Source: Clostridia bacterium | GTDB lineage: Bacteria > Bacillota > Clostridia > UBA1212 > UBA1255 | Direction of reading: 5' to 3' | Length of the DNA stretch: 46,657 nucleotides | NCBI GenBank assembly: GCA_016287565.1 | Contig: JAEFAM010000012.1 | Span: 1-46,657 of the forward strand | Shown: positions 2,579 to 38,276 of the stretch, piece by piece | Position numbering within the stretch: the stretch's first letter is position 1 | How the letters are laid out: the number at the start of each line of letters is the position of its first letter | Notes under the pieces: model-generated | The model's database searches: none | Seen by the model: the letters and a program-made list of their open reading frames with translations, nothing else | What the model was told of the DNA's origin: nothing | Translations under genes and position numbers: made by a program

Positions 2579-2738
2579 ACGATCTCCCGGATCAGGCGGT
2601 TTTGCTCAGAAAGGAATTTTGCCACAAGCACGCCGCAGGTGTCAACATCGATGGCTGTCCATTTGTGTGACCCGCAGAGATAATTATATGGTCCGGCTTC
2701 TTCATGGCCTCGTCTTGAAACTGTTCTTTCGATAAAAA

Positions 2739-3042
2739 TCGAGGATATTAATAGTTTTTGCAGATTTCCTCGAACTAACGACCGAGCCGCGCTGTCTCGA
2801 AAATGATAGTTTTATAAAAGTCGAGGATTTACGCGGTTTTATAATTGATCCTCGAAAACAGCGACGCTGCGCGCCTTCTAAAGGATGTTATTGCCATGGA
2901 CGTGTCAGAAAATGAACATAAATATCAGGGGTTTTCGCGTCTTTCGTTATTTCCCTCGAAAAACGCAGAGGCAACCATAACTCGAGCGGATCAAATGGGC
3001 ATTAACGTCGAGGATTTTAAGCAAATAGTTGTTTTCCCTCGA
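2739..3042. repeat. Array of TCGAGGA/TCCTCGA half-sites at about 28-bp pitch
   Basis: Copies of the heptamer TCGAGGA or its complement TCCTCGA, some one base off, begin near 2739, 2767, 2795, 2821, 2849, 2954, 2981, 3008 and 3037. Spacing is 25-29 bp, apart from one longer interval. In that interval (2855-2950) degenerate versions can be seen near 2877, 2904 and 2928. Two pairs form perfect 7-bp stems with exactly 21-nt loops: 2739-2745 with 2767-2773, and 2821-2827 with 2849-2855. The open frame running through it (2845-3096) has no ribosome binding site and looks accidental. The array lies in the divergent region between the MFS gene and sufC. Its function is unknown; an array of protein-binding sites or a row of hairpins are both possible. 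Confidence 0.6.
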
Positions 3043-3118
3043 AATTCTCCCTCGGGGAAACGAATCGGGTTCGATAATGAGCGAGAGCAGTTCTAACTCC
3101 ATCGCTCTACAGGCACCA

Positions 3119-3685
3119 TGAACCCTGACAATATAGTCTAAAGCAGTCAGGGCTCAATTTAGCTGCTCGCAACGCGGCAATTTAGCTCGCCCGTAAGGGC
3201 GAATTTAGCTGACCGAAGGTCAATTTAGCTCGTCCGAAGGACGAATTTAGCTCGGCGTAGCCGAATATCCCTCGCCGCCAGGCGAATATCACTCGACGAA
3301 GTCGAATATCACTCCGCGCAGCGGAATATCCCTCGCCGCCAGGCGAATATCACTCGACGAAGTCGAATATCACTCCGCGCAGCGGAATATCACTCGACGA
3401 AGTCGAATATCACTCCGCGAAGCGCAATATCACTCCGCGCAGCGGAATATCCCTCGCCGCCAGGCGAATATCACTGCGCGCAGCACAATATCACTCGTGC
3501 GCAGCACGAATATCACTGCGCGAAGCGCAATATCACTCGCCGCCAGGCGAATATCACTGCGCGAAGCGCAATATCACTCCGCGCAGCGGAATTTCGCTCG
3601 CGCGCCAGCGCGAATTTAGCTCGGCGCAGCCGAATTTAGCTGAACCCGGACAATAGAGTCTAAACAGCAGGGGTTCAATTTAGCT
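3119..3685 (+). repeat. Array of 23 covarying mini-hairpins with 9-nt constant linkers
   Basis: From 3165 to 3632 there are 23 palindromic units of 11-14 nt, each followed by a 9-nt linker: AATTTAGCT (outer units) or AATATCACT, AATATCCCT or AATTTCGCT (inner units). Examples are CGCCC-GTAA-GGGCG (3188-3201), GACC-GAA-GGTC (3211-3221), CGTCC-GAA-GGACG (3231-3243), CGGC-GTA-GCCG (3253-3263), CGAC-GAA-GTCG (3294-3304), CCGC-GCA-GCGG (3314-3324) and CGTGC-GCA-GCACG (3496-3508). Twenty units have perfect stems. Those at 3165, 3415 and 3476 carry mismatches. The T ending each linker and the A starting the next add one more pair. The array is framed by two related larger hairpins, 3119-3163 and 3641-3685, each containing an ACAATA-AGTCTAAA core. 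It ends 35 bp before the sufC promoter. It is not CRISPR, because the variable parts are themselves palindromes. Confidence 0.9.
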
Positions 3686-3802: not shown

Positions 3803-4525
3803 ATGCTCAAACTTGTTGACGTATCCTTCTCCGCCGATACGGAGAGAGGGAAAAAAGATATATTGAAGAACATTGACCTGGAGAGCGGCGACGGCTTCAC
3901 CGTTGTCACGGGACCCAACGGAGGCGGCAAATCCTCCCTGGCTAAGGTCATTTCAGGCCTCTACCGTCCCACGTCGGGGCGCATTTTCTGGAAAGGGCAG
4001 GACGTAACGGACCTGAACATTACCGAAAGAGCGAAGGCAGGCATCAGCTACGCGTTCCAGCAGCCCGTGCGCTTCAAGGGGATAACCGTGAAGGACCTCA
4101 TCAAAGTGGCTTCGGGCAAGGAGCTCAACGTTTCCGAGGCGTGCGAGTACCTCTCGGCGGTGGGACTCTGCGCCAGGGACTATATTGACCGGGAAGTGAA
4201 CGCCAGCCTGTCGGGAGGAGAACTGAAGCGCATCGAGATCGCCACCGTGCTTGCCCGAAACACGGATTTCGCGGTGTTCGACGAGCCGGAAGCGGGCATT
4301 GACCTGTGGAGCTTCAACAGCCTCATCAAAGTGTTCGAGCAGATGCGGGAGAGGACCCACGGCGCCATTATGATAATCTCGCACCAGGAGCGCATCCTGG
4401 AGATCGCCGACAGGATCGTGGTCATCAGCGGCGGCAAGGTGGAGAAGCAGGGGACGAAGGACGAGATCCTTCCCGGGCTCATGTATGACAGGACGTGCCC
4501 CAGGCTTGACGGCATCAATTCGTGA
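3803..4525 (+). CDS. sufC: Fe-S cluster assembly ATPase SufC
   Basis: SufC is the cytoplasmic ABC-type ATPase of SUF iron-sulfur cluster assembly; it binds SufB/SufD and drives their conformational change. The 240 residues are normal for the family. Walker A GPNGGGKSS (37-45), Q-loop FQQP, signature LSGGELKR, Walker B AVFDEPEAGID and the switch histidine in ISHQERI are all present. The ATG at 3803 follows AGGAAG. The sufB-like gene begins 15 bp downstream, and no sufS, sufU or second sufB/D paralogue is in the window. This two-gene arrangement matches the minimal SUF-like systems of many anaerobic Clostridia and archaea. It is transcribed from the extended -10 promoter at 3721-3749. Confidence 0.93.
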   Translation: MLKLVDVSFSADTERGKKDILKNIDLESGDGFTVVTGPNGGGKSSLAKVISGLYRPTSGRIFWKGQDVTDLNITERAKAGISYAFQQPVRFKGITVKDLIKVASGKELNVSEACEYLSAVGLCARDYIDREVNASLSGGELKRIEIATVLARNTDFAVFDEPEAGIDLWSFNSLIKVFEQMRERTHGAIMIISHQERILEIADRIVVISGGKVEKQGTKDEILPGLMYDRTCPRLDGINS

Positions 4526-30760: not shown

Positions 30761-30789
30761 AATATCACTCCGCAAAGCGGAATATCACC
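30761..30789 (+). repeat. Solitary copy of the mini-hairpin/linker repeat
   Basis: AATATCACT (30761-30769), the hairpin CCGC-AAA-GCGG (30770-30780) and AATATCACC (30781-30789) reproduce one unit and its two linkers from the array at 3119-3685. The loop AAA breaks the GNA rule. The copy is 22 bp upstream of the promoter of the SSB-like gene. Confidence 0.8.
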
Positions 30790-36322: not shown

Positions 36323-38083
36323 TCAGGAATGCTTGGAGACCGTGCCTGAAACGGTATAGTAGTAAACGTTCCTCACCGGTCCGTCTTCGTTGTAATAGCC
36401 TGATTTCGAATAGCTCGTACTGACGCCGGTCTTATATACTTTCGCAGCTTCTTTAACGGCGTCGTTCACTATTTCCCCTATAAGTGCGCTGCCCGGATCG
36501 ATGACGTCCGGCCGGATAAACACGTAGAAACTGTAGCCTTCCGAAGCGGTGGTGGTATGTATGTCGTAAAGCATCGCGGCCCTGACGCGCTCGATATCCG
36601 TCTCGGAGCTGATGATGTACGCGAACCGGAGCCCCTCGTCCTCGATCTTCTTTATGAGACCGGCTTTCAGATCCGCGTAACGCATTTCCGCCGCCTGGTC
36701 GTGGTAGGTGAGGGAGGTGCCCAGGGGAGAAAGGCCTGTGCTGCCGCTGGTGAAGTGATTGACCGAGATCGCTTCGTTCGTGATCATAAAATAGTTCATT
36801 GACATATTCGAACCGTCCGGATAATTCGAGTGGCCGTTGATCATTGGATCGTCCCAGGTCACGTCAACGAAATACCATTTTCCGTCGTCCATCTTTACCG
36901 CGTTCCAGGCGTGGCTTTCCGCTCCGGATGACGAAGAATTCTGAGCCGTTCCCGTAACGACCCTGGCCTGCATCCCCATCTCGGAAAGGGCAACTGCGTA
37001 AAATTCCGCGTATCCCTGACATACTGCGCTGCGTGTGGCCAGCAGCGAATCGATATGGTACGAGGAATACGAAGTATCGTATCTGATGTTTTTGACCAGC
37101 CAGTCGTGCACCGCCCGGGCCTTTTCCAGATTGCTCATGCCGCTGCGGGTGACTTCCCATATGATGTGGTCGATCTCGTACAATTCTCTTTCCGTTTTGA
37201 GGAGCGGGTAGTCCGTGTAGGATTTTCCCGTGAGACCTTTGTAGCTGCCGGCAACGTACACCGGCTCAGGGTTGGTCTGGGGCGCGGAGGTGGCCGCAGG
37301 CGGCTGGGTGGGAGCGAAGGTGGCCGGCATGGTGGACGCGGGCGTAGGCGTGGGCGTCGCTGTGGGCGCGGGAGTTTTGGTCGGAGTGGGTTTAGGCGTG
37401 GGCGTCTTGGTAGGCGCGGGAGTTTTGGTAGGTTTGGGCGTAGGCGTTGCCGTGGGTGCCGGAGTTTTTGTAGGTTTGGGCGTAGGCGTCGCTGTGGGTG
37501 CCGGAGTTTTGGTGGGAGTGGGTTTAGGTGTAGGCGTCTCGGTTGGCGCAGGAGTTTTGGTAGGCGTAGGCGTTGACATGGGCGCGGGAGTTATTTTGGC
37601 AGGTGTAGGCGTGGGTGTCGCCGTGGGCGCGGGAGTACCGGTGATCTCAGCCGTTGTGGTGATCTCAGGCGTTGCCGTAGCGGTAGGCGCGGGTTCGCCG
37701 GTGATTTCAGGCGTTGCGGTAGCAGTTGGAGCCGGTTCGCCGGTGACCTCAGGCGCAGCGGTAGCAGTAGGCGCCGGAGTTTCGGTAGGCGACGGTCCGT
37801 CGGTGACCTCGGGCGTGGCGGTAGCGGTTGGCGCAGGAGTTTCGGCAGGCACCGATCCGTCAGTGATCTCGGGCGATACGGTTGCCGTGGGCGCAGTGGT
37901 TTCCGCAGGGCCAGGCAATTCAGTTGCCTTTGTACCCGGCTCGGCTGTGGCAATAAAATTAGGCACCGGCTTCCCTGTATTGACCACCACCGTGCTGTTG
38001 TCCCCGGTGATGCCGCAGGAAGTCAGCGTCAATATCAAAGTGACGGACAATATAGCAATGAACGGTCCTGATCTTCTTTTCAT
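36323..38083 (-). CDS. Lipoprotein with Pro/Thr-rich stalk and transglutaminase-like domain
   Basis: A 586-residue protein. A signal peptide ends in the lipobox LTSC. A very long Pro/Thr/Ala stalk of the PTATPTPKPTKTPAP type (about 40-270) then leads to a transglutaminase/papain-like domain. Its triad is Cys355 in SAVCQGYA, His in SHAWNAV and Asp in VDVTWDDP. Such domains act as proteases or cross-linkers at the cell surface. The frame is open to 38164, but ATG 38083 (MKRRSGPF) has AGGTGAG upstream and places the signal peptide at the start. A TATAAT on the minus strand (38179-38174) probably drives it. The GDPD gene follows. Confidence 0.85.
   Translation of the reverse strand: MKRRSGPFIAILSVTLILTLTSCGITGDNSTVVVNTGKPVPNFIATAEPGTKATELPGPAETTAPTATVSPEITDGSVPAETPAPTATATPEVTDGPSPTETPAPTATAAPEVTGEPAPTATATPEITGEPAPTATATPEITTTAEITGTPAPTATPTPTPAKITPAPMSTPTPTKTPAPTETPTPKPTPTKTPAPTATPTPKPTKTPAPTATPTPKPTKTPAPTKTPTPKPTPTKTPAPTATPTPTPASTMPATFAPTQPPAATSAPQTNPEPVYVAGSYKGLTGKSYTDYPLLKTERELYEIDHIIWEVTRSGMSNLEKARAVHDWLVKNIRYDTSYSSYHIDSLLATRSAVCQGYAEFYAVALSEMGMQARVVTGTAQNSSSSGAESHAWNAVKMDDGKWYFVDVTWDDPMINGHSNYPDGSNMSMNYFMITNEAISVNHFTSGSTGLSPLGTSLTYHDQAAEMRYADLKAGLIKKIEDEGLRFAYIISSETDIERVRAAMLYDIHTTTASEGYSFYVFIRPDVIDPGSALIGEIVNDAVKEAAKVYKTGVSTSYSKSGYYNEDGPVRNVYYYTVSGTVSKHS
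37350..37600 (-). repeat. Imperfect coding repeats of the Pro/Thr stalk
   Basis: Tandem imperfect copies of short codon blocks for TPAPTATPTPKP and related units occur inside the transglutaminase-like lipoprotein gene. The opposite strand shows the matching GTAGGCGTGGGCGTT-type periodicity. Such tracts easily gain or lose units. Confidence 0.7.
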
Positions 38084-38212
38084 TATCTCACCTGATCGTC
38101 GTAATTCTGTGCGGCCGCCTGGCGCCGCGGTCGATCTCCCCGCGATGGGGAAGATCGCCGTCAACTGCCCCTCATTATAGCATAAAAGTTAAATATAATA
38201 AACCAGAAGGCG

Positions 38213-38261
38213 AATATCACTGCGCGCAGCGCAATATCACTCAGCGAAGCTGAACATCGCT
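38213..38261 (+). repeat. Two-unit copy of the mini-hairpin/linker repeat
   Basis: AATATCACT (38213-38221), GCGC-GCA-GCGC (38222-38232), AATATCACT (38233-38241), CAGC-GAA-GCTG (38242-38252) and AACATCGCT (38253-38261). Both hairpins follow the C-GNA-G loop rule, and the CAGC/GCTG stem is not found in the main array. The copy ends 15 bp before the iunH promoter, between divergent genes. Confidence 0.85.
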
Positions 38262-38276
38262 CCGCTCTCTTTTCAG

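Follow-up and report, generated by a model that had tools for sequence, protein, structure and literature searches.

The array of short palindromes at positions 3156 to 3685 of the window (the whole 46,657-nt stretch of Clostridia bacterium contig JAEFAM010000012.1 analyzed here) is, judging from comparison with related loci, the right arm of a miniature, dispersed repeat in which two inverted combs of mini-hairpins surround a core. By the same comparison, copies of the element are scattered through many gut Clostridia, the stems vary in sequence while remaining paired, and what stays constant, on the outward strand on both sides of the core, is the linker together with a C(GNA)G or C(GNNA)G loop. 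A gene of PF05635, the 23S rRNA intervening-sequence protein family (IVP, S23p; an Avd-like four-helix bundle), co-occurs with the elements and is often found next to them or between their arms. We are probably dealing with a miniature element of the REPIN-like kind, with DNA hairpin combs at its ends that the IVP protein probably recognizes. An earlier, sequence-only reading of the array missed that the array belongs, as one of two arms, to a dispersed inverted element, as well as the one-strand loop constraint and the PF05635 association.

Anatomy of the array in the window

The right-hand comb (3156 to 3685, plus strand, the outward direction for linker and loops) contains 25 copies of a 9-nt linker, with starts from 3156 to 3677 and the forms AATATCACT, AATTTAGCT, AATATCCCT or AATTTCGCT. 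The linkers are spaced by 20 to 23 nt, except for the last one, which comes after the right cap hairpin. Alternating with them are the 23 mini-palindromes proper, of 11 to 14 nt each (3165 to 3632, plus strand), 20 of which are perfect hairpins with a stem of 4 to 5 bp and a loop of 3 to 4 nt, the three imperfect ones being those at 3165, 3415 and 3476. The 23 palindromes, the constant linker and the 20- to 23-nt period that the sequence-only reading had described are therefore found again, apart from the off-period last linker, and all ten of the stems it named are present. All 20 perfect hairpins have a C-G closing pair and either a GNA (14) or a GNNA (6) loop, making the loop as constant as the linker. 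The array comprises 14 distinct units with 10 distinct 5' arm tetramers, and since a 61-bp block of three units is duplicated several times within it, the units are not all independent. Watson-Crick pairs occupy 95.7% of the outer four positions, versus 55.8 ± 5.0% after random exchange of 3' arms between units, and the array has fold z-scores of about −6 to −7.5 on either strand, with no shuffle folding equally well.

The comb is bounded by two cap hairpins to which no strand is assigned: the left one, GAACCCTGAC..GTCAGGGCTC (3120 to 3155), has one A-C mismatch and a loop of about 16 nt, and the right one, GAACCC..GGGTTC (3642 to 3676), directly precedes the last linker. Other arrays in the genome that contains the window also have a GAACCCTGAC..GTCAGGGTTC hairpin, as in the left cap. 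To the left of the comb lies the putative core (2720 to 3107, likewise without strand), whose assignment relies on its resemblance to other loci and is less certain than that of any other part of the element. It contains larger, imperfect palindromes of the form TCGAGGA..TCCTCGA (2739-2773, 2821-2855 and 3008-3042), the motif GCGCTGTCTC from 2789, which also occurs in cores at other loci, and, at the junction of core and arm, a strandless terminal hairpin GAGCGA..TCGCTC (3079 to 3107) common to the window and the loci L035, L061 and L074. The left arm is absent at the window locus, where only core and right arm are present. An ORF within the putative core (2845-3096) has no Pfam match, no recognizable protein is found in the core, and a coding role of array or core was rejected.

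The array is intergenic, lying between divergent MFS (1298-2578, minus) and sufC (3803-4525, plus) genes. Elsewhere in the window we observe, on the plus strand, a short satellite array of the same family with two hairpins and AATATCACT linkers (38211 to 38264) and a solitary unit AATATCACT-CCGCAAAGCGG-AATATCACC (30761 to 30789). The window also encodes, at 37272-38164, a proline/threonine-rich tandem-repeat linker (42- and 60-bp repeats) in a secreted protein, followed by a C-terminal part that looks transglutaminase-like by eye only.

Dispersal and inverted layout

Across the window's genome (2.65 Mb in 143 contigs), 83 blastn matches and 95 matches to the Rfam family Gut-1 are distributed over many contigs, forming about 30 or more array loci that are usually inverted pairs around a core. 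Most well-resolved loci have a minus comb to the left of the core and a plus comb to the right. When neighboring runs less than 800 bp apart are counted, all 26 opposite-facing pairs (14 from the window's genome, 12 from other Clostridia) have the order '-+', with none in the order '+-' (binomial, 3e-8). The cores in the window's genome are often 400 to 570 bp long and are built of ~82-nt units with a larger stem. All units of a locus have the same stem, but some loci use different ones (AAACGCCCAG, AAATACATA; probably TCGAGGA at the window locus). The cores share the GCGCTGTCTC motif and a terminal hairpin GAGCG..CGCTC.

Two-linker matches number 104 in the window's genome versus 0 in each of six congeners, and the regions upstream of five congeneric sufC orthologues are array-free, with different neighbors, indicating that the copies are lineage-specific. 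Among the matches listed, which fall only among the repeats themselves, there is no clean empty site or target duplication, so that movement is inferred from the distribution of copies. The three-linker pattern occurs in at least 113 stretches of the genome collection, nearly all from Clostridia MAGs and mostly from ruminant guts; 76 of these 113 pass a strict palindrome test, the remainder having shorter or imperfect stems or being chance tandem repeats (probably those in Nitrosopumilus and Borreliella). A viral origin was rejected, as none of 13 pattern matches in IMG/VR is palindromic.

In other Clostridia we observe a small form of the element, about 200 to 230 bp long, often ordered as terminator hairpin, four left hairpins, core and three right hairpins, with either a PF05635 ORF with start signals or nothing on the 3' side. 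In one genome, G154, many sites carry near-identical copies, most of which immediately follow tRNA genes, and the tail of the element frequently has GCCA as its end, ahead of the next copy or terminator. Most of the loci L321-L334, L339, L297, L303, L310, L050, L137 and L097 also lie directly 3' of tRNA genes (tmRNA in L097). These elements carry a terminator hairpin of the GAAAAAA..TTTTTTC type, whose stem varies between copies as well. Such an arrangement would suit a gene-end device, i.e., a terminator and 3'-end protection comb for neighboring transcripts, and the A/T-flanked terminator hairpin placed directly after tRNA or tmRNA genes speaks for it in several other genomes. We regard this explanation as most improbable for the family, since the arrays of the window's genome have no tRNA nearby, and neither of the divergent genes on the two sides of the window array reads into it. 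As a general rule, tRNA adjacency holds in several other genomes and fails in the window's genome.

The layout resembles that of REPINs and BIMEs, with which the elements share inverted hairpin modules that form one dispersed unit ('-+' in 26/26), an extragenic location, compensatory stem changes and a probable mobilization in trans. They differ in that each arm has many hairpins where REPINs and BIMEs have one or two, and in that stems are free while linker and G(N)NA loop are fixed. The view that they are REPIN/BIME-type elements moved by a RAYT (Y1 transposase) can point to features shared with REPINs (PMC3116915), namely, dispersed intergenic doublets of inverted hairpins whose stems change in a compensatory way, and to Y1_Tnp genes in 17 of 23 carriers, but is very unlikely to be correct. 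The three Y1_Tnp genes of the window's genome are flanked by another repeat (GGGGACAG..) and not by mini-hairpin arrays, six carriers have no Y1_Tnp gene, including the array-rich G110 (24 Gut-1 matches, 98% complete), and no GTAG-type foot is seen. RAYT was therefore rejected as the mobilizer, PF05635 taking the partner's place. The repeat around at least two of these Y1_Tnp loci (L079, L080 and L081, on contigs C131, C96 and C22 of the window's genome, G000) is of the GGGGACAG(A/G)CCCC type and probably a REP family of its own. REP elements are built on one conserved palindrome, whereas we count 38 distinct 5' arms in the window's genome and 97 in others, in agreement with the earlier exclusion of REP elements. 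A CRISPR array had been excluded as well, and the variable segments are indeed not unique, non-palindromic spacers but recurring palindromes with a constant loop.

DNA or RNA structure

The statement that no named family resembles the array has to be revised. An Rfam search of the window matched only Gut-1 (RF01706) and one tRNA, with four minus-strand Gut-1 matches in the array (3281-3355, 3362-3435, 3442-3518 and 3546-3622) that score 66.9, 61.8, 59.9 and 57.1 bits, above the gathering threshold of 50 bits. The original publication presented Gut-1 as a probable noncoding RNA that was known from no source other than human-gut sequences (PMC2864571), and Rfam files it as an sRNA; beyond that paper, we found no mention of the family in the literature. 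In the alignment, its 77-nt consensus consists of three mini-hairpins joined by GUGAAAU. Going by this alignment, Gut-1 is a slice of longer mini-hairpin combs that occur in inverted pairs, and the window array comes from the same family, although Gut-1 has been described as a 77-nt noncoding RNA and the loop and mismatch evidence given below favors DNA, on the opposite (outward) strand.

Pairing is kept well beyond the window: over all 295 units of the window's genome it reaches 92%, versus 43% with arms shuffled, and over 290 distinct units from other genomes 87% versus 28%, with 38 and 97 distinct 4-nt 5' arms, respectively. This agrees with the earlier claim that both arms change together and that structure, not stem sequence, is kept, in the window's genome as well as across other Clostridia. 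On the outward strand, C(GNA)G or C(GNNA)G loops are found in 180 of 245 hairpins in the window's genome and in 192 of 308 in other genomes (62-73%), and T..C loops in at most 3; background hairpins elsewhere on the same contigs show G(N)NA-type loops and their complement symmetrically (2.8% and 2.4%). GNA and GNNA loops on GC stems form extraordinarily stable, nuclease-resistant DNA mini-hairpins (PMC4686876), and all 20 perfect hairpins of the window belong to this d(cGNAg)/d(cGNNAg) class. The likeness to d(GCGAAGC)-type mini-hairpins extends to the loops and to the short GC stems; the difference is that the latter are known as chemistry, from synthetic oligonucleotides and not from natural arrays in the literature that we found. 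ViennaRNA energies are identical for both strands of triloop units, and energy models with DNA parameters reproduce no GNA triloop bonus, so that strand-specific stability rests on the published chemistry.

These counts bear on the possibility that the arrays are structured RNA, either transcribed as noncoding RNA, in keeping with the filing of Gut-1 as an sRNA, or serving as an mRNA leader before the IVP gene that folds in two ways. The leader version draws on the small elements, in which the outer-left linker and the 5' arm of the first hairpin (HP1) are complementary to the core, forming a long-range helix (P0) that competes with HP1. P0 is 9 to 13 bp long in 21 of 22 small elements and 6 bp in one, and the left half that it spans has a constant length of 72 to 85 nt, with an ORF with start signals directly 3' where one is present. 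Its mean length is 10.7 bp versus 6.2 ± 0.5 bp when cores are swapped between elements, with P0 anchors picked by eye and the same strings used in the swap control. The competition of P0 and HP1 could thus also reflect a regulated mRNA leader. We nevertheless consider structured RNA unlikely. Mismatches among distinct units are G-T in 48 and A-C in 47 cases, without a G-U bias on either strand, which fits DNA structure better because selection on one RNA strand should favor G-U. GNYA tetraloops (54 in the window's genome, 39 elsewhere) are overall not rarer than the RNA-favored GNRA (8 and 47), and in the window's genome they are commoner; no UUCG loop occurs among the array hairpins counted. 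Furthermore, loop polarity flips at the core, so that no single transcript could carry the favored loop in both arms, and many copies have no downstream ORF.

Loop class, the GNYA/GNRA and UUCG counts and the symmetry of mismatches all point to DNA. The sequence-only reading had left the choice between ssDNA or RNA structure and a protein-binding comb; the ssDNA or protein-binding half is the better supported one, and the RNA half is disfavored by loops and mismatches. A family catalogued in Rfam as a metagenomic sRNA would in this way belong to a dispersed repeat element that acts at the DNA level, and the same loop and mismatch counts offer a simple criterion for whether hairpins of other repeat families are conserved as DNA or as RNA.

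Association with PF05635 and proposed mobility

Among 147 genomes of the class, PF05635 is found in 20 of the 23 Gut-1 carriers versus 29 of the 124 non-carriers (Fisher, P = 1e-8, a statistic that ignores phylogeny), the remaining three carriers having no detectable IVP. The window's genome has two PF05635 genes, one of which lies between two inverted mini-hairpin arrays in a sister element on contig C140 (93.9 bits); this is the single IVP-bearing locus among about 30 array loci, and the window element has no PF05635 ORF. The IVP gene is also situated between the arms at L189 and L098, and at other loci it lies just downstream of a complete element. Array loci of other genomes, 0.99 Mb in total, contain five PF05635 genes, four of them within ~150 bp of an array. 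Of 77 PF05635 genes, 27 are preceded within 430 bp by two or more G(N)NA hairpins, and this label is clustered on the IVP protein tree (12 changes versus 24.1 when shuffled). Inverted-similar flanks are more frequent at PF05635 ORFs than at control ORFs. One copy, at L330, carries a truncated PF05635 gene and looks like a step from parent to passenger.

Two known systems resemble this association. The 23S rRNA intervening sequence that encodes IVP/S23p likewise has a PF05635 ORF framed by inverted sequence; here, however, the elements lie outside rRNA genes (the window element is not within a 23S rRNA gene), the frame is a mini-hairpin comb, and most copies have no ORF. In diversity-generating retroelements (DGRs), the accessory protein Avd resembles IVP (PMC10053308), and the target is a DNA hairpin with a free stem sequence and a GRNA loop on one strand (PMC3240598). 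The likeness lies in the variable, GC-rich stem and the one-strand loop; the difference is that a DGR has a single hairpin next to its variable repeat, and has a reverse transcriptase. We found no DGR reverse transcriptase with TR/VR in the window's genome, whose only RVT_1 match is RT_UG26 (L341, G000:C72:37003-38205, minus; PADLOC, 562 bits). This enzyme does not track the arrays: of the 6 genomes out of 147 that have it, only one is among the 23 carriers and five are among the 124 non-carriers, and it was rejected as a partner. This UG26-group enzyme is a candidate defense-type reverse transcriptase.

PF05635 is the best candidate for the recognizer of linker and loop. We lean towards a hairpin-comb element in which the outward strand would work as DNA, IVP would recognize linker and loop, and IVP-less copies would be mobilized in trans. 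When the outward strand is single-stranded, the combs would extrude very stable, nuclease-resistant hairpins; the IVP protein would read the linker and the G(N)NA loop and not the stem, a recognizer of this kind leaving the stems free to drift, and slippage would lengthen the combs. IVP-bearing copies would be the parents, and IVP-less copies, including that of the window, internally deleted passengers mobilized in trans, as REPINs are by RAYTs. To our knowledge, IVP has not been described as a nuclease or recombinase; candidates for the catalytic step are a host nuclease, replication or reverse transcription.

A neutral origin, with slippage and template-switch repair making and perfecting palindromes, a mutational bias in loops and pairing, and stable hairpins duplicating more, would account for the duplicated 61-bp higher-order blocks in the window and for near-perfect complementarity without wobble bias, as expected from template switching. 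We give this explanation little credence, as it leaves unexplained the fixed linker across genera, the strict inverted polarity (26/26) with dispersal to many loci, and the fixed anatomy of the small element with its IVP association.

The hairpin-comb element recognized by IVP may, as a tentative extension that we hold to be possible rather than probable, represent a mobile-element class not described before, spread by an Avd-like IVP that reads G(N)NA-loop mini-hairpins by loop and linker; that such a class is built on PF05635 is plausible but unproven. If true, it would unite three orphans, namely, Rfam Gut-1, the PF05635/S23p proteins and DGR Avd with its GRNA-loop target hairpin. The association itself ties the dispersed elements to PF05635, a widespread family for which we know of no assigned function, and the DNA mini-hairpin with free stem and fixed G(N)NA loop is a concrete candidate target of Avd-type proteins.

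Other repeats surround PF05635 genes as well. The second PF05635 gene of the window's genome (L077, G000:C49:45800-46600) is flanked by inverted tandem arrays of another repeat, AAATGGCAAATTG and its complement. The right part of this locus (G000:C49, about 47000-47700) contains ~82-nt tandem units with the stem TTTCGAGGGA..TCCTCGAA, which resemble the core palindromes of the window and have no mini-hairpin arms adjoining. In other Clostridia, several PF05635 genes have inverted flanks of further short repeats, at L082, L085, L087, L089, L109 and L110.
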